Source: Nitrospirota bacterium
Lineage (GTDB): Bacteria > Nitrospirota > Nitrospiria > Nitrospirales > Nitrospiraceae
Direction of reading: 5' to 3'
Assembly: GCA_020027965.1 (NCBI GenBank)
Contig: JAHRHE010000009.1
Span: forward strand, 1-41,681
DNA: 41,681 nucleotides
In this document: piece after piece, positions 501 to 27,276 of the stretch
How the letters are laid out: each line of letters starts with the position of its first letter
Numbering within the stretch: the stretch's first letter is position 1
Translations under genes and position numbers: made by a program
Notes under the pieces: model-generated
The model's input: the letters and a program-made list of their open reading frames with translations, nothing else
Database searches by the model: none
What the model was told of the DNA's origin: nothing

Positions 501-631
501 GCCCTGCCCTGAGTTCGTGGTTCGACGGTTCGACCAGCTCACCGTGGCGAGTAGAGTCGAGCCACAGGCTCACCACCCTGAGCCTCGTCGAAGGGTCGAA
601 GGGGCCTGCCCTGAGCTGGTCGAAGGGGCTC
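501..631. repeat. REP-like inverted repeat cluster
   Basis: Within the 425-base gene-free stretch 462-886 there are several copies of a palindromic unit built on CCCTGAGC-n3-GTCGAAGGG, for example around 576-600 and 607-627, with a related GTTCGAC motif near 520-535. The same unit occurs at 21434-21497, 24018-24081 and 27141-27270. The rest of 462-886 shows no convincing gene. The last ~60 bases should hold the leader of the 887 gene, but I could not identify a clear promoter. Confidence 0.75.
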
Positions 632-7561: not shown

Positions 7562-7613
7562 TGTCGCGTGTTCAAATAGGATCGATTTTGGAGCGGGCGA
7601 CGGGATTTGAACC
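7562..7613 (-). repeat. Displaced copy of the 3' end of tRNA-Gly (direct repeat, copy 1)
   Basis: These 52 bases match 7724-7775 at about 49 positions; the last 35 (7579-7613) are identical to 7741-7775. The shared part covers the CCA end, the 3' acceptor strand and part of the T arm of the tRNA-Gly gene plus ~28 bases of its downstream flank. Beyond 7613 the likeness stops, so there is no D arm or anticodon arm and this is not a working tRNA. The pattern looks like an old att-site duplication or a tandem-duplication remnant. Confidence 0.8.
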
Positions 7614-7723: not shown

Positions 7724-7775
7724 TGTCGCGGGTTCAACTGGGATCGATTTTGGAGCGGGCGACGGGATTTGAACC
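7724..7775 (-). repeat. Direct repeat copy 2, overlapping the 3' end of tRNA-Gly
   Basis: This is the partner of 7562-7613, 162 bases away. It includes ~27 bases downstream of the tRNA and the tRNA's CCA, acceptor and T-arm bases. The ~110 bases between the copies are GC-rich with short inverted repeats (AGGGGGCCAGCCCCCT near 7663 and GAAGGGGG/CCCCCTTC near 7693-7714) and hold no gene. Confidence 0.8.
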
Positions 7776-18653: not shown

Positions 18654-20236
18654 CCAGGGCCCACGAAGACCGGGTTGCTGAGGAGCTCCGCCTCCCCCTT
18701 GATCTCCAGCCGGTAAGCCACCCACTCTCCCGGCGGGACCCCGGAGTCAGCCACCTCGTTCACAAAGGGCGTGTGGCTTTCGAATCGAGCGACAACCTGC
18801 CCGGACCGGATCAGGGTTACCTTGATCGGATGCCTGCCCTGGTCGGTCGCGGAGATGGCCATCCGGACAACGAGATCCCGCGATCCTTGGGGGTACAGCA
18901 CCTCACCACTCTCCGCGCCACGCGCTCCACCTTGGCACTCGACCCGGAACCGGTCCAGTCTCAGCCCGTACTCCCTGCGGTACTGATGGAGTGCATAGTA
19001 GCGACCGGCCCGCAGGGCCTGGAGCAGCCCCCGCTGCGTGCGCTCAGGCGCCCACAAGATCGTCAAGACCTGGTCGAGTTCCTTGCGATCATGCCCGGGC
19101 CCGTGGAAGGCCAGTTCCCCGACCGCAAACGGCAGCGTGGCTCGCTCCCCCATCAGGAACCGGGCAATGGCCTGGTCCCAGACTCCCCCCGGTGTGGTTG
19201 CCGTTCGATTATCCTGGTAGATACCGCCGAACCCTGTGTAGCCGGTCGTCAACAGCAGGGCTTCGGGGTAGGGTTCGGTCGTGACCGTCACAGTTCCCAG
19301 CGGAGCGAAGGAGAACCGGTTGAAATCTCTCGCCTCCGGCATGGACCAGACCACCACCCCTCCGCGGGCAGTGACGGCATCAATCAAGGCTTGGTACGGA
19401 CGATAGCCTAGTCCCTCCTCATACAGACTGAAGGCCGACTGGCTGAACGGCCAGGCATTCAGCAGGAGGAGCGCCGCAATGCCGGCTATCATCACCGCCG
19501 GTCCGCGGTAGCGAGCGGTCGCCCCATAGGTCAGGATGCCTACCCGCGCGTTCCCAACACGGCGACAGGTCCAGAGCCATGCAGCCGGGACAAACAGGAG
19601 GCCCGGCAGGACATTCGGCAGGCTCTCCCATCCGTACTGACGCGCTGCCGGATTGCCGGCAACCGGTAGCGCAAGATAGTCCTCGGCGCGGGCGAGTCCC
19701 ACCACCAGCACATTCCTTTGAGAGTTGTGCATCGTGAGCGTCCCGTCCAGCAGCGAGCCGGTCCAGTAGTAGTGCGGGGCCACCTCCACGCCGGGAATCA
19801 ACAGCACACGAGGATGGCGCGACTGTGCTTCCCGGATCTCGGCAAGGAACCGCTCCACGCCGTATTCCAGCACGGACGGCACGCGAACCGTATAGCGGAT
19901 CACTCCCCGCAGCGGGGGCAGACCATACTCATAGCGGAGGACCAGATTGTCGGAGAGGACCACGGCCTCCACCCCAAGCCGCTCCGCCTGCTCGGCCAAC
20001 TCGTCAATGCTCAACGCGCCCGTGCTGGCCTTGCTATGGATGTGGAGCGCGGCGATCAGCGGCTGGAGAGTGGTCTCCGCACCCGCCGCAGCGAGAACCG
20101 GTCCGACCACGGCTACCGTGCCCAGCAGGAAGAGACCCAACGCCGCGCCGTGCACCGCCCTGGCCGGTGGGGAGGCGGCAAGCAACCACCACGTCGACCG
20201 GGTGGCCTCAGGCTGATTCACGGAGGGCTGCGTCAT
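18650..20236 (-). CDS. Membrane protein with PHP-type phosphoesterase domain split by membrane helices
   Basis: This 528-residue protein starts with an N-terminal hydrophobic helix (~32-52). A PHP domain follows: His65-x-His67 in LHIHSKASTGALSIDEL, VVLSDN at 92-97 and the PGVEV strand with Glu151. Two further hydrophobic segments (~208-224 and ~246-262) interrupt it before the fold seems to resume (LIDAVTARGGVVVWSMPEA, about 284-302; GELAFHGPGHDRKEL, about 373-387). The C-terminal ~110 residues look like a beta-sandwich. PHP domains are metal-dependent phosphoesterases; some in capsule loci are tyrosine phosphatases, but this protein does not look like CpsB. The expected His of the later metal motif is Trp (VVWSMPE), so activity is uncertain. 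GGAAGG precedes the ATG at 20236. Confidence 0.8.
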   Translation of the reverse strand: MTQPSVNQPEATRSTWWLLAASPPARAVHGAALGLFLLGTVAVVGPVLAAAGAETTLQPLIAALHIHSKASTGALSIDELAEQAERLGVEAVVLSDNLVLRYEYGLPPLRGVIRYTVRVPSVLEYGVERFLAEIREAQSRHPRVLLIPGVEVAPHYYWTGSLLDGTLTMHNSQRNVLVVGLARAEDYLALPVAGNPAARQYGWESLPNVLPGLLFVPAAWLWTCRRVGNARVGILTYGATARYRGPAVMIAGIAALLLLNAWPFSQSAFSLYEEGLGYRPYQALIDAVTARGGVVVWSMPEARDFNRFSFAPLGTVTVTTEPYPEALLLTTGYTGFGGIYQDNRTATTPGGVWDQAIARFLMGERATLPFAVGELAFHGPGHDRKELDQVLTILWAPERTQRGLLQALRAGRYYALHQYRREYGLRLDRFRVECQGGARGAESGEVLYPQGSRDLVVRMAISATDQGRHPIKVTLIRSGQVVARFESHTPFVNEVADSGVPPGEWVAYRLEIKGEAELLSNPVFVGPG

Positions 20237-21419
20237 AGACACCTTCCACCGCACGTACCATCGCGGTGACCCCAAACCGGGCGCCGATGCTCTCACTGGC
20301 GGCCGCACCCAGCCCCTTGGCCCACGCCGGCCGCTGAATCAACTCGGCGATCGCCGCCGCCAGCGAAGACGCATCCCCAGGGGGCACCAGCAACCCGTTT
20401 CGCCGATCCTTCACGATCGCAGGGATCCCACCGACCCGTGTGGCGATCACAGGGCGTCCCGCCGCCATGGCCTCGATGAGCGCGCGCCCCATGCCCTCAT
20501 TCAGCGAAGGCAACACGAATAGGTCCATGGCGGCCAGGCACTCCAGCACATCGGTCCGCTCGCCCAGCAAGCGGACCGAGTCTCCGACGCCGAGCGCGGA
20601 CGCCAGGGTGGCGAGGTCCTCGCACAGCTCGCCGCCACCCACAACAACGACGTACAGCCTCGGGTGGCTGGGTTTCAGCCTGCTGAGGGCCTCGATCAAG
20701 TAGCGGTGCCCCTTTACCGGAGTGAGCCAACCGACCGACCCGATGACAAGTGCATCCGGCGGACAGGCAAACCCATCAGGACGCTGACCGACCGCCCCGG
20801 CTGCGCTCTTGAACCGCTTCACGTCGATCCCGCTGGGGATTACCGTAAAGCGGCCCGCCCGGCCAACGCGTCGCTCGAGATAGTCGTCCCGCTCCGCCTC
20901 GGTGAGCGCAATCAACCTGATCGTCACCTTCGCCAGCAGCCGCTCGACCTGTAAAAAGAACCATGACCTCAGCCGCCCAAAATGCCCGTAGAAGACATGC
21001 CCGTGCGGGGTGTGGATGATCACCGGCACTCTGGTCAGCCAGGCGGCCAGCCGGCCCAGCACGCCGGCCTTGGAGGTGTGCGTATGCACAATAACCGGCC
21101 GCTCCCGACGGAACAACGCGATGAGCTGGCCCAGCGCCCTGAGATCCTTGATCACGTTCAATTCTCTCGTGAGGGCCATCACACGGTGCACTCGTACGCC
21201 CGCCGCTTCCAGTCGGCGAGCATTCTCTTCGCTTGCTTTCGCACCTCCCTGAGCGATCCAGCGGCCCGGCGGGCCGTCGGCGACCAGCGGGTCATAGCGC
21301 GAGCGATCGTGCCCCAAGGCGGTAAGGAGCGTATTCTGCGCCGAGCCGCCCCAATCCAGCCGCGTGATCACATGGATCACCTTCCGCGGCATCATGGTCG
21401 GCTGAAGCTTCTTCCTCAC
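20208..21419 (-). CDS. GT4-family glycosyltransferase
   Basis: This 403-residue retaining glycosyltransferase has the GT-B fold. The N-terminal domain shows the GG loop (TRLDWGGSAQNT) and VHTHTSKAGVLGRLAA; the C-terminal donor domain shows GSVGWLTPVKGHRYLIEAL and the E-x7-E motif in SLNEGMGRALIEAMAAGRPVIAT. It is cytoplasmic or loosely membrane-bound and adds a sugar from a nucleotide donor to a lipid-linked glycan. The GTG at 21419 has GGGAGGAG upstream; ATGs at 21395 and 21392 are alternatives. The gene overlaps the PHP-protein gene by 29 bases. Sugar specificity cannot be inferred. Confidence 0.93.
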   Translation of the reverse strand: MRKKLQPTMMPRKVIHVITRLDWGGSAQNTLLTALGHDRSRYDPLVADGPPGRWIAQGGAKASEENARRLEAAGVRVHRVMALTRELNVIKDLRALGQLIALFRRERPVIVHTHTSKAGVLGRLAAWLTRVPVIIHTPHGHVFYGHFGRLRSWFFLQVERLLAKVTIRLIALTEAERDDYLERRVGRAGRFTVIPSGIDVKRFKSAAGAVGQRPDGFACPPDALVIGSVGWLTPVKGHRYLIEALSRLKPSHPRLYVVVVGGGELCEDLATLASALGVGDSVRLLGERTDVLECLAAMDLFVLPSLNEGMGRALIEAMAAGRPVIATRVGGIPAIVKDRRNGLLVPPGDASSLAAAIAELIQRPAWAKGLGAAASESIGARFGVTAMVRAVEGVYDAALRESA

Positions 21420-21433
21420 TCCTTACTCCTCCC

Positions 21434-21497
21434 GCCTGCCCTGAGCCCTGTGGTTCGACGGGCTCACCACCCTGAGCTTCGTCGAAGGGTCGAAGGG
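21434..21497. repeat. REP-like doublet between two GT4 genes
   Basis: Two adjacent stems fill the 79-base gap: GAGCCC/GGGCTC (21444-21466 region) and CCCT-GAGCTTCGTCGA-AGGG. The unit matches 24018-24081 at roughly 57 of 64 positions. It could act as an mRNA-stabilising or attenuating structure between the cotranscribed genes. Confidence 0.75.
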
Positions 21498-21498
21498 C

Positions 21499-22710
21499 CT
21501 ACTCGACCGCTTCGCGCAGGATCACTTCCAGCCGATCCGTGTGCCGAACCCAGTTGTACTCTTCCTCGACTAGCGCGCGGCACTTGATCGAGAGTCGTTC
21601 CTGCTCTCCTGGCTGGTCACGGAACCGGCGCAATATCCGGCGGAGGGCCGAGGCCAAAGCCGCCCCGTCGGTGCCGTCCGCGATCAAACCAGGATCTACA
21701 CGGGCCAGCACCTCTGGGATCGCCCCAACCGGCGTCCCGAGTACCGGCGTGCCGCACGCCATTGCTTCCACCGTCACCAGTCCGAACCCTTCCAGCTCCT
21801 GCGTGGGCATCAGCACCAGATCGGCCGCTTGATAGTAGAGCGGCAGCTCCTGCTCGGCGACATACCCCAACAACCGGACGCGATCGGTGAGCTTTAGGTC
21901 ACGGATTCGTTGCTCGAGCGACGACCGCAGCACGCCGTCGCCTCCGACCAGCACCTGGAGGTCTTGCCCTTCCTCACCCAGCCGCGCAATGGCCTGAACC
22001 AGGTTCTCAAGACCCATGCGTGGCACCAGGTTCCGGACCGTGAACAAAACCACCTTGTTCAACGGCAACTTGAGTCGCCGCCGGACTTCGGACGGATCGG
22101 CCGGCGGATGAAAGCGGACCGGATCGGCGGCCCCGGGCACAATTCGGAGCCGGCTCTCCGGCAGGCGGTGCGACTCCATGACGCGTTGTCGCATAAACTC
22201 GCTGAGCACCACGATTCGCCTGCAGCGGCGCATGACGACACGCTCGCTCCACTGGCGCACCCATGTGTTGAGCGCGTGGCGCGCTCGTTCCAGACTCGTC
22301 GTACCGGGGGATGTCCGCGAACGGTACTCCTCATGGGCCAGCGAGTGACAGACATATATCCACCCGCCGACCTGCCTGGTGCGGCATAGGATCGGGCCGA
22401 GCCCGCCCAGGGATTGATGGATCACGGCCACGTCCCACCGGTGACCTGCCCGGGCCTGGTCCAGGGCCGCGATCGATCGCAAAACCGAGGACAAGACAAA
22501 CGCCGCCTCGTTCCGCCTCGAGACGTCGTAGCGAGACTCCACGACAGAGCCGATGGTGACCTGCGGGAGACGATCGCCGGCCGGAGCACGCGCGACCACC
22601 CGGACCCGGTGGCCGCGCTGCTGCAGCCCCAGCGCTTGCTCGCGCAAGACCCGTTCGGCACCTCCGATCACCACCACCGCCGACACCTCCGCCAGCATGA
22701 GAACGTTCAT
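21499..22710 (-). CDS. GT4-family glycosyltransferase
   Basis: About 403 residues from the ATG at 22710 (MNVLMLAEVSA). The GT-B fold is shown by the N-terminal VVIGGAERVLREQALGLQQRGH and the C-terminal VRNLVPRMGLENLVQAI plus the E-x7-E motif in TQELEGFGLVTVEAMACGTPVLGT. It should extend a lipid-linked oligosaccharide with a sugar of unknown type. The longer frame (start 22770) runs into octamer repeat and is rejected. REP-like and octamer repeats flank the gene on its downstream and upstream sides. Confidence 0.93.
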   Translation of the reverse strand: MNVLMLAEVSAVVVIGGAERVLREQALGLQQRGHRVRVVARAPAGDRLPQVTIGSVVESRYDVSRRNEAAFVLSSVLRSIAALDQARAGHRWDVAVIHQSLGGLGPILCRTRQVGGWIYVCHSLAHEEYRSRTSPGTTSLERARHALNTWVRQWSERVVMRRCRRIVVLSEFMRQRVMESHRLPESRLRIVPGAADPVRFHPPADPSEVRRRLKLPLNKVVLFTVRNLVPRMGLENLVQAIARLGEEGQDLQVLVGGDGVLRSSLEQRIRDLKLTDRVRLLGYVAEQELPLYYQAADLVLMPTQELEGFGLVTVEAMACGTPVLGTPVGAIPEVLARVDPGLIADGTDGAALASALRRILRRFRDQPGEQERLSIKCRALVEEEYNWVRHTDRLEVILREAVE

Positions 22711-22807
22711 GGCAGAATTGTCGATTATTGATTTGCCGATTGATTCATTGTCCTGCCCGGTCACTTTCAATGATTCAATGACTCAATGAAACAATGATTC
22801 AATGCTT
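22711..22807. repeat. Octamer tandem repeat between asnB and a GT4 gene
   Basis: Five direct 8-base units run from 22768 to 22807: CAATGATT, CAATGACT, CAATGAAA, CAATGATT, CAATGCTT. The last units overlap the asnB stop codon (22799-22801), so the array supplies the end of the gene. The rest of the gap (22711-22767) is AT-rich and shows a weaker 8-base period on the minus strand. Confidence 0.75.
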
Positions 22808-24763
22808 CTCTAGCCAGAGCTCCAAGACGAGCAGGGCATAGAGCTGATCGGCCAAATTACGGCGACCGGCTTCGTGCGTCTCGATCACCCAGCGGACATA
22901 CTCCGGTTTCAGGTAGCCGCGCCGTTTGACCCTACCCTCCGACAAGAGATCACGGACCATCTCCCTCAGATCCTCCCGGAGCCAGCGCGCGATCGGCACC
23001 TGGAATCCGAACTTCGGACGGGCGAGAATTTCCGCGGGCAGGGCCCGGGTCAGCGCACGTCGCATAAACGACTTCAACCGGAATCCCTTGAGCCGCTTGG
23101 ACGCGGGAAGCCCACACGCGAAGGAGAGCAGCACATGGTCGCAGAATGGCACCCGCAGCTCGAGTGAATGCGCCATACTCAGGCGGTCACCCATGCGGAG
23201 AAGATCGTCGGGAAGGTAGGTCTGCAGATCTAACCCCATCGCCCGATCGGCGGGCTCCTCCGACGGCCAGTTGGTGAAGGCCAGCGGATACTCGTCCGTG
23301 AGCGATGCCGGGCCGACCTGATCGATCTGATCCTGGAACTCCGGAGTGAAGAGAGACGAGTCCCATTCCGGCGGCCGAAAGGTCACCCACCGGACGTACT
23401 GCTCCGCAATCGGGCGATACCCATCGCGCAAAAATCGCTTGAGGCGACTCCCTTGATCTCTATTGGTGTTCCCCTCCGGAATGTGTGGGGCGAGGTGTGT
23501 GGCCACCCACTGGCGCACCGCCTGCGGTACCTTGGCATAGCGCCCCGCCGCGCGCATGCCCAGGTAGCGCGGATAGCCCCCGAACAGCTCATCGCCCCCG
23601 ATCCCGGACAAGGCCACCGTCACGGACCGCCGAGCCAATTCCGATACCAGATAGGTCGGGATCGCCGAGGAGTCTGCGAACGGTTCGCCCATGGCTGTCA
23701 CGATCCGCGGCAGCAGTTTCACAGCATCCGGGCGAAGCCGCTCTTCGGTGTGTTCGGCGCCGAAGTGGGCCGCCAGACCGCGCGCGGCTTCCAGTTCGTT
23801 GTACGGCTGGTCCGCCTGGTCGGCGTATCCGATGGAGAAACTGCGGATCCGTCCGCTGTGGACGGCCCGCATCATTGCCAGGATCGCGCCGGAATCCAGA
23901 CCGCCTGAAAGAAACAGCCCGAGGGGAACGTCGCTGACCAAGTGGGCCCGTACGGTCTCCCGCAGCACGTCGAGAAAATCCTGCTCGAGACTAGAAACCG
24001 CGCGCCCTTTCCCAGGCGCCTGCCCTGAGCTCTGTGGTTCGACAGGCTCACCACCCCGAGCTAAGTCGAGGGGTCGAAGAGCACCGTGCCACGACGATGT
24101 CGGATGGAAGTACCGCCGCGTCTGGACTCGGCCTCTCACCACCCTCAGCAGTTCTCCCGGGCGGAGTTGCTGGATGCCCTCGAAAATTGTCCCGGGACCT
24201 GGCACGTAGAGCAGGGTCAGGTACTGGGCCAGCGCCCGAGGAGACACCGAGCGCGGTGACAGGGCTGGCAGCAACGCCGGCACCTCGGACGCAAACGCGA
24301 GCCCGCCACCCACTTCGTCCGGCTGAACCGCATAATAAAGCGGTTTGATCCCCAACCGGTCGCGAACCAACAACAAGGTCTGACGTCCACGGTCCCAAAG
24401 CGCGTAGGCAAACATCCCGCGGAGCCGGTGGACGCCCTCCTCGCCCTCCTGCTCATACAGATGTACCAGCACTTCGGTGTCGCAGTTCGAGGTAAAGCGG
24501 TGTCCTTTGCCAACCAGTTCCTCGCGGAGCTCCCGGTAATTATAGATTTCTCCGTTCAGCACGACCCAGATCGTGCCCGTCTCATTGGTCATCGGCTGAT
24601 GCCCGCCCGCCGGGTCGATGACACACAACCGTCGCACGCCCAGCGTCACACCCGGCTCGTGATGCTGCCCCTCTTCATCTGGTCCGCGGTGCTCGAGCCG
24701 ACTCAGCATCCGCTTCAGCACCGCTTGATCGCGCTCTCCGAGATAGCCGCCGATTCCGCACAT
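22799..24763 (-). CDS. asnB: Asparagine synthase-type amidotransferase (glutamine-hydrolysing)
   Basis: This 654-residue protein has two domains. The N-terminal class II glutaminase begins at Cys2 after Met removal (MCGIGGYLG), with HRGPDEEG and LNGEIYNYREL. The synthetase domain has the PP-loop LSGGLDSGAILAM, then SFSIGYADQ and SGIGGDELFGGYPRY. Homologs in polysaccharide loci often amidate or modify glycan components instead of making free asparagine. The start at 24763 is chosen so that Cys follows the initiator Met; the ATG at 24778 would block the nucleophile. Residues ~228-249 (ALRPLDLARGGEPVEPQSSGQA) are encoded by a REP-like repeat inserted in frame between the two domains. Core motifs are intact. 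The stop overlaps an octamer repeat. Confidence 0.95.
   Translation of the reverse strand: MCGIGGYLGERDQAVLKRMLSRLEHRGPDEEGQHHEPGVTLGVRRLCVIDPAGGHQPMTNETGTIWVVLNGEIYNYRELREELVGKGHRFTSNCDTEVLVHLYEQEGEEGVHRLRGMFAYALWDRGRQTLLLVRDRLGIKPLYYAVQPDEVGGGLAFASEVPALLPALSPRSVSPRALAQYLTLLYVPGPGTIFEGIQQLRPGELLRVVRGRVQTRRYFHPTSSWHGALRPLDLARGGEPVEPQSSGQAPGKGRAVSSLEQDFLDVLRETVRAHLVSDVPLGLFLSGGLDSGAILAMMRAVHSGRIRSFSIGYADQADQPYNELEAARGLAAHFGAEHTEERLRPDAVKLLPRIVTAMGEPFADSSAIPTYLVSELARRSVTVALSGIGGDELFGGYPRYLGMRAAGRYAKVPQAVRQWVATHLAPHIPEGNTNRDQGSRLKRFLRDGYRPIAEQYVRWVTFRPPEWDSSLFTPEFQDQIDQVGPASLTDEYPLAFTNWPSEEPADRAMGLDLQTYLPDDLLRMGDRLSMAHSLELRVPFCDHVLLSFACGLPASKRLKGFRLKSFMRRALTRALPAEILARPKFGFQVPIARWLREDLREMVRDLLSEGRVKRRGYLKPEYVRWVIETHEAGRRNLADQLYALLVLELWLEKH
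24018..24081. repeat. REP-like repeat inserted in frame within asnB
   Basis: The 64 bases match the intergenic copy at 21434-21497 with about seven differences, including the GTGGTTCGAC and GTCGA-GGGTCGA cores. It lies within the asnB coding sequence in the linker between the glutaminase and synthetase domains, and the frame stays open across it. Confidence 0.8.
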
Positions 24764-24805
24764 CAGTCGTGTCACCATTCGCCTACCGTCAAGGCACGGT
24801 GGCGA

Positions 24806-25069: not shown

Positions 25070-25987
25070 CTAGGATTCCTGCGGCCGCGCCGCAGCTTCG
25101 AATGAAGGCGCAAGGACCACCCGCCGACCGGTCAACCCATAGAGGGCCTGAGCGCCTATCCAGAGTCCCATGCCCGCCGCCCTCCATACCAGCCTCCTGG
25201 CCGGACGCTCTGACAAATGGATGGGGGCCAGGCTGGTCCTCGAATTCCTCAGTGAGAGGGGCTCCAACCCGACCGAGCGGAGGAGCGTGCGAACCGCTCT
25301 CGGGGTATACACGAACAAGTGAAAGGCCTGCTGGAATTGCAGGCCCAGCCGCTGGGCCGTCCGACGGAGGGGGACATGAAATGCGCCGTTCGAAACACGA
25401 ATGAGCACCACCCCACGCGGTGCCAAGGCCTGCTTGACCCGACGGAGCACGGCGACAGGGTCGGAGACGGTCTCGAGGACATTGACCAAGGTGATGGCGT
25501 CATAGCGGTCGCCTGCGTCCTTAGGACGGGGCGAAAGGTTGAGCCAATCATCGGGAAGCATGGTGATTCCGCGACGAGCTGCCTGTTCAGCCGCTTGGCG
25601 GGACAACTCCAGGCCATAGCAGGTCCAACCGGCCTTGCGACACAGGGCCAGGAACCTGCCATCCCCGCATCCGATGTCCAGCAGGCGGCCCGGCGGGACG
25701 CGATGCCACGACAAATGCCCTAGCACGCTGGAGTAGACCGGGCTGCGGTCCGAACTGCTCTCGACCTTCCCATAGGCCGCGGTGTAGGAATCCCGATAAA
25801 ACTCCCTGACCGCATGAGCGGTCGGTCTCGGGCTGAGAAACATCAAGTCGCAGGACGGACAGCGCCAGTACTGTCGCGTGGGCGTCCGGAATACTTCCCG
25901 CGCCGGGAGCGCGCTCCCACAGGGGCAGGAGATGGTTTCCGAACGATCCTCGAACACCAAATGCCGCGACCGCCCTGACTTCGTCAT
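25070..25987 (-). CDS. Class I SAM methyltransferase with N-terminal zinc ribbon
   Basis: This 305-residue protein has an N-terminal zinc-ribbon-like part (Cys21, Cys23, Cys43, Cys46; CPC ... CPSC) followed by FLSPRPTAHAVREFY, then a Rossmann methyltransferase with motif I LDIGCGDG (103-110) and post-motif VNVLETVSDPVAVLRRVKQALAPRG. Two other proteins in this window (30480-31391 and 34823-35932) share the plan C-x2-C, CPxCGL, (N/S)PRP, methyltransferase. The first Cys pair here is spaced CxC instead of CxxC. Such proteins are common in glycan loci and may O-methylate sugars. Starts with an ATGA overlap on the preceding GT4 gene. Confidence 0.9.
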   Translation of the reverse strand: MTKSGRSRHLVFEDRSETISCPCGSALPAREVFRTPTRQYWRCPSCDLMFLSPRPTAHAVREFYRDSYTAAYGKVESSSDRSPVYSSVLGHLSWHRVPPGRLLDIGCGDGRFLALCRKAGWTCYGLELSRQAAEQAARRGITMLPDDWLNLSPRPKDAGDRYDAITLVNVLETVSDPVAVLRRVKQALAPRGVVLIRVSNGAFHVPLRRTAQRLGLQFQQAFHLFVYTPRAVRTLLRSVGLEPLSLRNSRTSLAPIHLSERPARRLVWRAAGMGLWIGAQALYGLTGRRVVLAPSFEAAARPQES

Positions 25988-27276
25988 CCGTGCACTCCTT
26001 GCGGTGCCGCGGTCGTAGCCCGCCGTTCGCGTCGTGTCTCTTCAAACAGCGTCACGGTTTGAGCCGCCATTCGATCCGCTGTGAATCGGTCCCGGACCAC
26101 CTGAGCGCCTCGCCGGCCCATCTCTGCGGCTCGAGCCGGATCCCGCAGGATTTCCCGAATCTCCCGTGCCAGTGCGTTCGAGTCGCGGGGCGGCACGAGC
26201 CGCCCGGTGCTGGCATGCTCGACCAATTCCGGCACACCGTTGACCCGTGAGGCCACGACCGGACAGCCGACCGCCAGCGCCTCCAACAGCACGAACGGGA
26301 ACCCCTCCGACACCGACGGAAGCACAAGCAGATCAGCCCCCGCAAGAATGGCCGGGATATCCCGGCGTACTCCCGCAAAGAGACAGCAGGCTCCGATCCC
26401 CAGGCGAGTCGCCTCTGCCACGATCGTCTGCTCGAGCTCGCCTTGCCCGACAATCAGGCACTTGAGGTGCGGCCACTCCGCCAGCAGTTGGGGCAGCGCG
26501 TGCACCAGATACCGGTGCCCCTTTTGTTCGGTCAGCCGGCCAATGACCACCAGCAGAGGGCCAGGTCCCACCCGGAACTCGGTCCGGATGGCCAATCGAT
26601 CGGAGGGTGGCTTCAGTGTCGTGAGGTCAATGCCGTTGTAAATAGTCACGGTTTGGTCGGGGTTGCACGCGGCCCTGGCGATCATGTCCTGGCGCAAGTC
26701 CTCGGACACGCAAATGATGCGATTCGCCAGTCGGATCACCTGGCGCAGGATCGCTCGGTACATCCAGCGTTTGGCTGCGCTAATCGGGTAGTCCTGCAGC
26801 GAATTATGAATGGTCGCGATGATCACGGGAACGCCGGCCAGCCGCCCGGCGAGGCAGCCGTACGCACTCGAGCGGAGGCCGTGGGTTTGAAGAATGCCCA
26901 CACGCTCGCGCGCCAACAGTCCCGCGAGTCGGACCAGTGCCACAGGATTCACCAGAGGGGACAGATGCACGAGTCTGGCTGACACACCCTGCTGTTCCAT
27001 AGATTCCTTGAACGGGCCGGGCTCCGGACAGATCAACAAGGGGCAAAACTGCGCTCGATCGAGCCGACTCATCAGCAGTTCGAGATAGCGCTCGCCGCCC
27101 CCATAGGCGGCCGATCCCGCCAGCTCCGCGAGCACGACAGGGCCCTGCCCTGAGTCATTCGACAGGCTCATGACAGGCCTGGTCGAGGGAGCTTGCCCTG
27201 AGCTTGTCCCTCGACCCTGCTCGGGACGGGTCGATCGGGTCTGCCCTGAGCCTCCCGAACGGGTCGAACGGGTCAC
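25984..27276 (-). CDS. GT4-family glycosyltransferase with repeat-encoded N-terminal tail
   Basis: This 430-residue GT-B enzyme has the GGG loop (LAELAGSAAYGGGERYLE), QTHGLRSSAYGCLAGRLA and IGRLTEQKGHRYLVHAL, with the E-x7-E motif in SVSEGFPFVLLEALAVGCPVVAS. The GTG at 27276 is supported by a GTGA overlap with the upstream methyltransferase stop and by GGGAGG 8 bases before it. The first ~45 residues (rich in Arg, Ser, Thr, Gly and Gln) come from the REP-like block 27141-27270 and have no counterpart in ordinary GT4 proteins; the fold starts near residue 46 (VVLAELAG). An internal ATG at 27171 would shorten the tail but has no clear ribosome site. Confidence 0.92.
   Translation of the reverse strand: MTRSTRSGGSGQTRSTRPEQGRGTSSGQAPSTRPVMSLSNDSGQGPVVLAELAGSAAYGGGERYLELLMSRLDRAQFCPLLICPEPGPFKESMEQQGVSARLVHLSPLVNPVALVRLAGLLARERVGILQTHGLRSSAYGCLAGRLAGVPVIIATIHNSLQDYPISAAKRWMYRAILRQVIRLANRIICVSEDLRQDMIARAACNPDQTVTIYNGIDLTTLKPPSDRLAIRTEFRVGPGPLLVVIGRLTEQKGHRYLVHALPQLLAEWPHLKCLIVGQGELEQTIVAEATRLGIGACCLFAGVRRDIPAILAGADLLVLPSVSEGFPFVLLEALAVGCPVVASRVNGVPELVEHASTGRLVPPRDSNALAREIREILRDPARAAEMGRRGAQVVRDRFTADRMAAQTVTLFEETRRERRATTAAPQGVHG
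27141..27270. repeat. REP-like repeat cluster at the 5' end of a GT4 gene
   Basis: About three tandem, partly inverted units with GCCCTGAG and GGTCGA cores follow each other (near 27144, 27193 and 27243). The block lies between the GTG start codon and the first residues of the catalytic fold and is translated as residues ~2-45 of the glycosyltransferase. Confidence 0.8.

Follow-up and report, generated by a model that had tools for sequence, protein, structure and literature searches.

How a dispersed palindromic repeat comes to be translated within a conserved enzyme, and by what process it arrives and grows there, is the question raised by an asparagine-synthase-like gene (asnB) in the window analysed here, a stretch of 41,681 nucleotides of contig JAHRHE010000009.1. 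The source, referred to as G000, is a Nitrospirota metagenome-assembled genome (MAG) of 3.6 Mb in 263 contigs, with 97% completeness and 3.7% contamination. An earlier note on this DNA had described a 64-base REP-like palindrome in the asnB frame, related to an intergenic sister copy, and had proposed that a process similar to that of the Rickettsia palindromic elements (RPEs) operates in this lineage. The explanation that we consider probable as a whole is that the asnB insert is a translated, in-frame repeat insertion, produced by hairpins that are mobilised in trans and favour the loops of existing units, that grow in frame-keeping steps and that encode a neutral peptide. The features of the window are collected in Table 1.

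Table 1. Repeat units and associated genes in the window
Feature	Position	Strand	Remarks
Asparagine-synthase-like amidotransferase gene with insert	22799..24778	-	asn_synth_AEB; XrtA/EPS amidotransferases nearest
Composite repeat, in-frame part of interdomain linker, codons 233-254	24017..24082	-	sequence identity, homolog alignment
asnB peptides over the insert junctions			..HPTSSWHGALRP.. and ..SSGQAPGKGR..
Inner unit, core TTCGACAGGCTCA, stem GTGG/CCAC	24038..24050	+	
Second inner unit, core CTCGACTTAGCTCG	24057..24070	-	inverted relative to the first; 4-bp complementary flanking stem
Outer unit, TTCGAC half (GTCGAA on the plus strand)	24073..24078	-	
Outer unit, GCTCA half (TGAGC on the plus strand)	24026..24030	-	inner pair enclosed between the outer halves
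Intergenic composite copy	21433..21498	.	between glycosyltransferase-like ORFs 20208-21419 and 21499-22770
Three-unit cluster between called ORFs	529..624	.	one nested composite, outer stem TGG/CCA
Two units, N-terminal part of glycosyltransferase ORF 25984-27276	27142..27223	-	read RPEQGRG and MSLSND

The enzyme itself is whole: the asnB ORF covers the TIGR01536 (asn_synth_AEB) profile in full (positions 1-517 of 517; 436 bits, with the cut-off at 267), while its score of 541 bits against TIGR03108 (XrtA/PEP-CTERM amidotransferase) is below that profile's cut-off of 817, and the named homologs nearest to it are from Nitrospirota MAGs. When the ORF is aligned with solved structures, the match breaks off at residue 231 and is taken up again at residue 271, which places the insert between the glutaminase and the synthetase domains, as the earlier note had stated. 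The minus strand of the insert has the predicted translation ALRPLDLARGGEPVEPQSSGQA in the asnB frame, and the insert is 89% identical, ungapped over 66 nt, to the intergenic copy, so that the claimed relationship between the two is upheld. Among 13 chosen homologs (L003 and L095 being almost identical in the linker), 11 have a short linker of 21 residues and no insert, and the two others (L004 of G011 and L005 of G018) carry unrelated extensions at the same place that do not contain the repeat core. The insert is thus seen as an indel, and the opposite case, an equivalent linker unrelated to the repeat in all homologs, does not hold. The contig of L095 is filed as Actinobacteria MAG AC_48, and its 70%-identical asnB is of the Nitrospirota type; this contig is possibly misbinned. 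An AlphaFold model of the asnB product, based on a nine-row alignment, had a mean pLDDT of 44.8 and was set aside.

The insert belongs to a family with about 130 units across G000. A unit consists of a variable stem, YTCGAC, two or three nucleotides, GCTCR and the matching stem, often followed by an NCAGGC tail. In the whole genome, the exact pattern TTCGACN{1,4}GCTCA occurs 105 times versus 14 times for the reversed pattern, and a BLAST search with a 71-bp query around the intergenic copy gave 63 matches at E values up to 1. Within 427 kb (66 stretches plus the window), the wider pattern YTCGACN{1,4}GCTCR had 188 matches, 131 of them with a complementary flanking stem of at least 3 bp, as compared to 0 of 11 matches to the reversed control. 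Stem positions 1, 2, 3, and 4 pair in 88, 84, 82, and 59 of 97 TTCGAC-type units, whereas shuffling gave at most 54, 57, 52, and 51, respectively, and as many as four pair types were seen; 72 CTCGAC-type units show similar stem pairing. As the stems differ in sequence yet keep their pairing, the family is one of hairpins with a conserved, mostly unpaired core. Single-strand RNA folding of the composite indicated a stability not above that of shuffles (z from -0.28 to -1.70).

Being short, palindromic, present in many similar copies and mostly extragenic, the units qualify as REPs in the broad sense. Only 7 of the 76 clusters with a stem of at least 3 bp in G000 lie inside accepted host genes, even though the coding share of the fetched DNA, by ORF calling, is 76%; this paucity of internal copies fits selection against most insertions. 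An Rfam search yielded no relevant match, searches of plasmids, phages, and viral contigs (one query or pattern each, and hence weak negatives) yielded no match, and no parent insertion sequence or target duplication was identified among the units examined. With regard to other repeats in the window, two 52-nt direct repeats that are 94% identical, lie 162 bp apart and have a tRNA-like GGGATTTGAACC end were found at 7562-7613 and 7724-7775.

While the description of the asnB element as a REP-like repeat stands, its description as a single 64-base palindrome or simple REP does not; the element is a 66-bp composite, in which an inverted pair of units is placed within the loop of a third unit. 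Across the family, YTCGAC is located exactly 8 bp upstream in 20 of 139 units (0.15 expected), and 15 of these 20 nested cases are closed by GCTCR and a stem that matches the outer one, with a gap of 26 nt after the inner core in most of the 15. The enclosed loop hence measures 41-42 nt instead of the usual 2-3 nt, equivalent to a net gain of 39 bp (13 codons), and an inverted pair within another unit's loop, directly after YTCGAC, typically adds this length. A monomer lengthens the empty site by 24 bp (8 codons), and uvrC of G002, for example, exceeds the empty site by this amount. Both steps are multiples of three, so growth inside genes keeps the reading frame, and both are also present in intergenic copies. 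Moreover, a 24-bp head-to-tail spacing of units occurs outside called coding frames (C151 and C221 in G000 as well as loci of G118 and G011), so the step is intrinsic to the element and not solely a result of selection in genes. On this reading, the asnB element represents a gain of 24 + 39 = 63 bp; its net length relative to homologs comes to 23 codons instead of the 21 that this implies, and the extra two would be ordinary linker drift.

The largest in-gene arrays are found in an ArnT-like glycosyltransferase, where 96 bp (32 amino acids) in G000, G004, and G019 correspond to four units that are differently arranged in each genome. A remnant is present in G002, and 13 of the 16 relatives aligned have no insert at this site (from 19 fetched loci; L373, L378, and L381 were excluded). 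In the G000 gene, a 24-bp unit directly follows the TTCGAC of another unit, and its mental removal leaves a unit resembling its neighbour. Unit order and nesting in this linker (L247:2990-3100, L352, and L364-L366) vary at a constant gain of 96 bp, which suggests that the array is fixed while its units turn over.

At least nine conserved genes hold in-frame units, namely asnB and eight others in G000, which encode UvrA, UvrC, an acetyl-CoA-synthetase-like protein (Acs), a dCTP deaminase (DCD), an ABC-F ATPase, a calcium-type P-ATPase, the ArnT-like glycosyltransferase, and a NuoG/formate-dehydrogenase-like protein; the expectation that similar peptides would be found elsewhere in the proteome was thus borne out. 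An indel relative to homologs was seen for asnB and six of the others (UvrA, UvrC, Acs, DCD, P-ATPase, and ArnT), and the evidence for the ABC-F and NuoG copies is their position. For UvrC, DCD, and UvrA, the comparison comprised the best 11, 11, and 10 relatives with loci, respectively, out of 20 searched for each; a further UvrA locus (L321), cut by a contig end, was excluded. DCD of G000 is 16 amino acids (48 bp) longer, with 10 of 11 relatives having no insert at all and one having a different insert. The UvrC insert of 7 or 8 amino acids is common to G000 and G002 but has diverged in G002 (GEPSRT versus GEQGRT), and must thus be older than the split between these two genomes; it is missing from 10 of the 11 relatives aligned. 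The Acs insert was seen against an 87/76%-identical ortholog (L279, the only close relative among the seven aligned), with a gap that deviates from whole steps. For the P-ATPase, the alignment is interrupted between 372 and 420, corresponding to 375 and 387 in the structure.

Thirteen clusters scored above 0 as internal, and seven of these were accepted (ArnT, UvrC, DCD, ABC-F, UvrA, Acs, and asnB), while the P-ATPase and NuoG units, with stems of 2 bp and 1 bp, respectively, were found outside the set with stems of at least 3 bp. C34:48509, a MDRSTMAHGLEGR stretch of an asnB paralog, was dropped as a probable native match, as were C104:1706 and C104:2999, judged from the appearance of their flanks alone; C115:28032, C171:4670, and C205:3994 were excluded as terminal or ambiguous.

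In-frame units also occur near the ends of further genes. In L203:3001-4300, a methyltransferase and an adjacent SBF-family (ACR3-like) transporter end in repeat-encoded tails, LRQGSGQA in the former and ALRPLDKARGGEPVEPRGSGQA in the latter; this second tail is read in the asnB frame and closely resembles the asnB peptide. The two units in the glycosyltransferase ORF (Table 1) may precede its true start, and an in-unit ATG AGC CTG TCG AAT (27157-27171, minus strand) could provide its start codon. The UvrA linker (codons ~562-606; L204, L311, and L313) carries different repeats in different genomes, with two family units in G000, two unrelated palindromes in G008, and a tandem CACGCGT array in G002, while five further relatives have nothing there; the linker resembles a hot spot where insertions are tolerated. 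A unit lies approximately 100 bp from the dcd match in L325 (G004) and in G011:C4:122349-122370, whereas the G000 units are inside dcd. In G008 (C14:15158-16958), the UvrC match is split into three parts that do not all share a frame, which may reflect a frameshift or an assembly error.

Among the 15 in-gene units, each of the five stop-free frames is represented, and the sixth, which is closed by a TGA in TTCGAC-type units, never occurs. This use of every open frame suggests that the translated peptide is probably not itself the target of selection. We therefore regard it as very improbable that the linker peptide is a functional, selected module encoded by DNA that merely resembles the repeat; the near-identical transporter tail, in the same frame, is what speaks for such a module, but the diversity of frames, the occurrence of the sequence between genes and the lack of the peptide in most homologs speak against it. 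Under the explanation we prefer, the peptide would be neutral ballast, and in-gene insertions would persist when located in a flexible linker and an open frame.

Beyond G000, the excess of the core pattern over the control was highest in G004, G008, G022, and five genomes of genus g24 (along with G000 itself), and a 22-nt pattern that includes the CAGGC tail was found in 27 out of 198 Nitrospirota genomes, none of the 198 having a control match. Further genomes of the order have in-frame units as well. G004 carries an in-frame ArnT copy, confirmed by alignment, and additional in-frame candidates (L330, L342, and L350:1501); L350:1791 and L355 were judged native-looking rather than repeat copies. 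The in-frame scan beyond G004 covered 20 of the 40 loci or regions taken from other genomes. In G029, a single contig, 13 units were found, with one of 13 loci in frame in what looks, by eye, like the linker of a LytTR-type response regulator; in G040, the single locus examined has a tandem in-frame pair. Copies of a dispersed palindromic repeat have been inserted in frame, and are translated, in at least eight G000 genes other than asnB as well as in genes of G004, G029, and G040; a process like that of the RPEs is therefore at work in this lineage, as the earlier note had proposed. The spread across genomes also bears on the possibility of a metagenome assembly or binning artefact. G000 is fragmented and includes some contamination, and some repeats are close to contig ends; however, the UvrC insert recurs, diverged, in G002, and units, one of them in frame, are present in single-contig G029. 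An artefact is scarcely credible for the insert and is already refuted for the repeat family.

Hairpins with covarying stems, their dispersal, the inverted pairs and the fixed nesting point suggest a protein that recognises and inserts the hairpin. We propose that units would be recognised and moved by a protein acting in trans, and that the loop of an existing unit would be a preferred target, with YTCGAC favoured. In a specific and tentative form of this proposal, an enzyme places 24-bp units or 39-bp inverted pairs after YTCGAC of a unit that is already present, such that arrays expand from within. If this were correct, such an element would be nearly harmless in genes, given that five or six of its frames are open and all steps are multiples of three, and proteins would lengthen by 8 or 13 residues, providing for frame-neutral diversification of linkers (e.g., in ArnT, UvrA, Acs, and AsnB) throughout the order.

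The main rival, which we likewise hold to be possible without favouring it, is that slippage, template switching, and gene conversion between hairpins spread and nest the units with no dedicated enzyme. Tandem 24-bp arrays and the rearranged, equal-length ArnT arrays in three genomes resemble recombinational turnover, and the repeats show no association with Y1 (RAYT) genes; on the other hand, lone units at unrelated sites (UvrC, DCD, and UvrA) require dispersal, and nesting takes place at one exact position despite differing stem sequences. The constant nesting gap may partly result from copying of ready-made composites.

If there is a dedicated protein, it is unlikely to be a Y1/HUH transposase of the RAYT type, which is thought to mobilise GTAG REPs. 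The units display what would be expected of Y1 enzymes, with a hairpin form, dimers, stems that covary, and an insertion point immediately 3' of a short, constant motif, and two Y1_Tnp genes are present in G000. Neither of these genes shares a contig with any unit, however, and no Y1_Tnp match was found in G004, G008, G026, G040, G056, and G059 despite 53-108 pattern matches in these genomes. Repeat counts and Y1_Tnp are uncorrelated among 61 genomes (Spearman 0.13, p 0.32), Y1_Tnp is found in 3 of 9 repeat-rich versus 30 of 52 other genomes (Fisher p 0.28), and aligned units have no GTAG terminus.

The in-frame units described here extend protein-coding palindromes to the Nitrospirota, with an unrelated repeat family and with dated empty and filled sites, and the modular, frame-keeping lengths suggest a simple reason why repeats survive in genes. 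The enzyme and target rule of a self-nesting repeat and the neutrality of the added peptides can now be tested.

In-frame insertion of repeats is already known, and it is the family, the lineage, and the modular nesting that appear new within the literature covered. None of the four core forms of the motif is printed in the text of the open-access papers searched (figures, supplements, and subscription papers being outside this scope), and no description of the family emerged from literature searches on Nitrospira palindromic repeats or intragenic REPs. The earlier note had cited Rickettsia as the best-known example, which is appropriate, but the phenomenon is wider, and the passages on these elements in PMC2229807 and PMC3733652 include Wolbachia repeats, ERIC, NEMIS, and GTAG and CGTC REPs from many species. 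Wolbachia palindromic repeats are small and fused in frame with proteins, and in-frame protein fusions have also arisen from ERIC and NEMIS (PMC2229807); the present units are similarly small repeats in frame in proteins, while those three types are longer, MITE-like elements that end in inverted repeats and in some cases show target duplications. GTAG and CGTC REPs are found within ORFs of several species, including uvrA, and intragenic REP dimers or groups encode 20-30 amino acids (Di Nocera 2013, PMC3733652). The units described here share with them the short hairpins, the inverted dimers, the location inside ORFs, and uvrA as a target; by contrast, their core forms no simple stem-loop, and same-family nesting after YTCGAC is regular. 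With regard to GTAG REPs specifically, the aligned unit flanks contain no GTAG consensus and there is no RAYT (Y1) association, and while CGTC REPs have a terminal CGTC tag, an 8-9 bp stem, and a 4-5 nt loop (PMC3733652, Table 1), the present units have no CGTC end and a stem of mostly 3-8 bp around a core of 13-14 nt. RPEs (Ogata 2000/2002, as treated in PMC2229807 and PMC3733652) measure 105-146 bp and occur in 19 reading frames, with a Gmk product that is still active (PMC2229807), and RPE-4 and RPE-6 are CGTC elements (PMC3733652). Like RPEs, the units in G000 are palindromic, occur both between genes and in frame in unrelated conserved proteins, and are tolerated there; unlike RPEs as these are described, they are 24-bp units with a YTCGAC/GCTCR core that belong to the Nitrospirota and grow by nesting.
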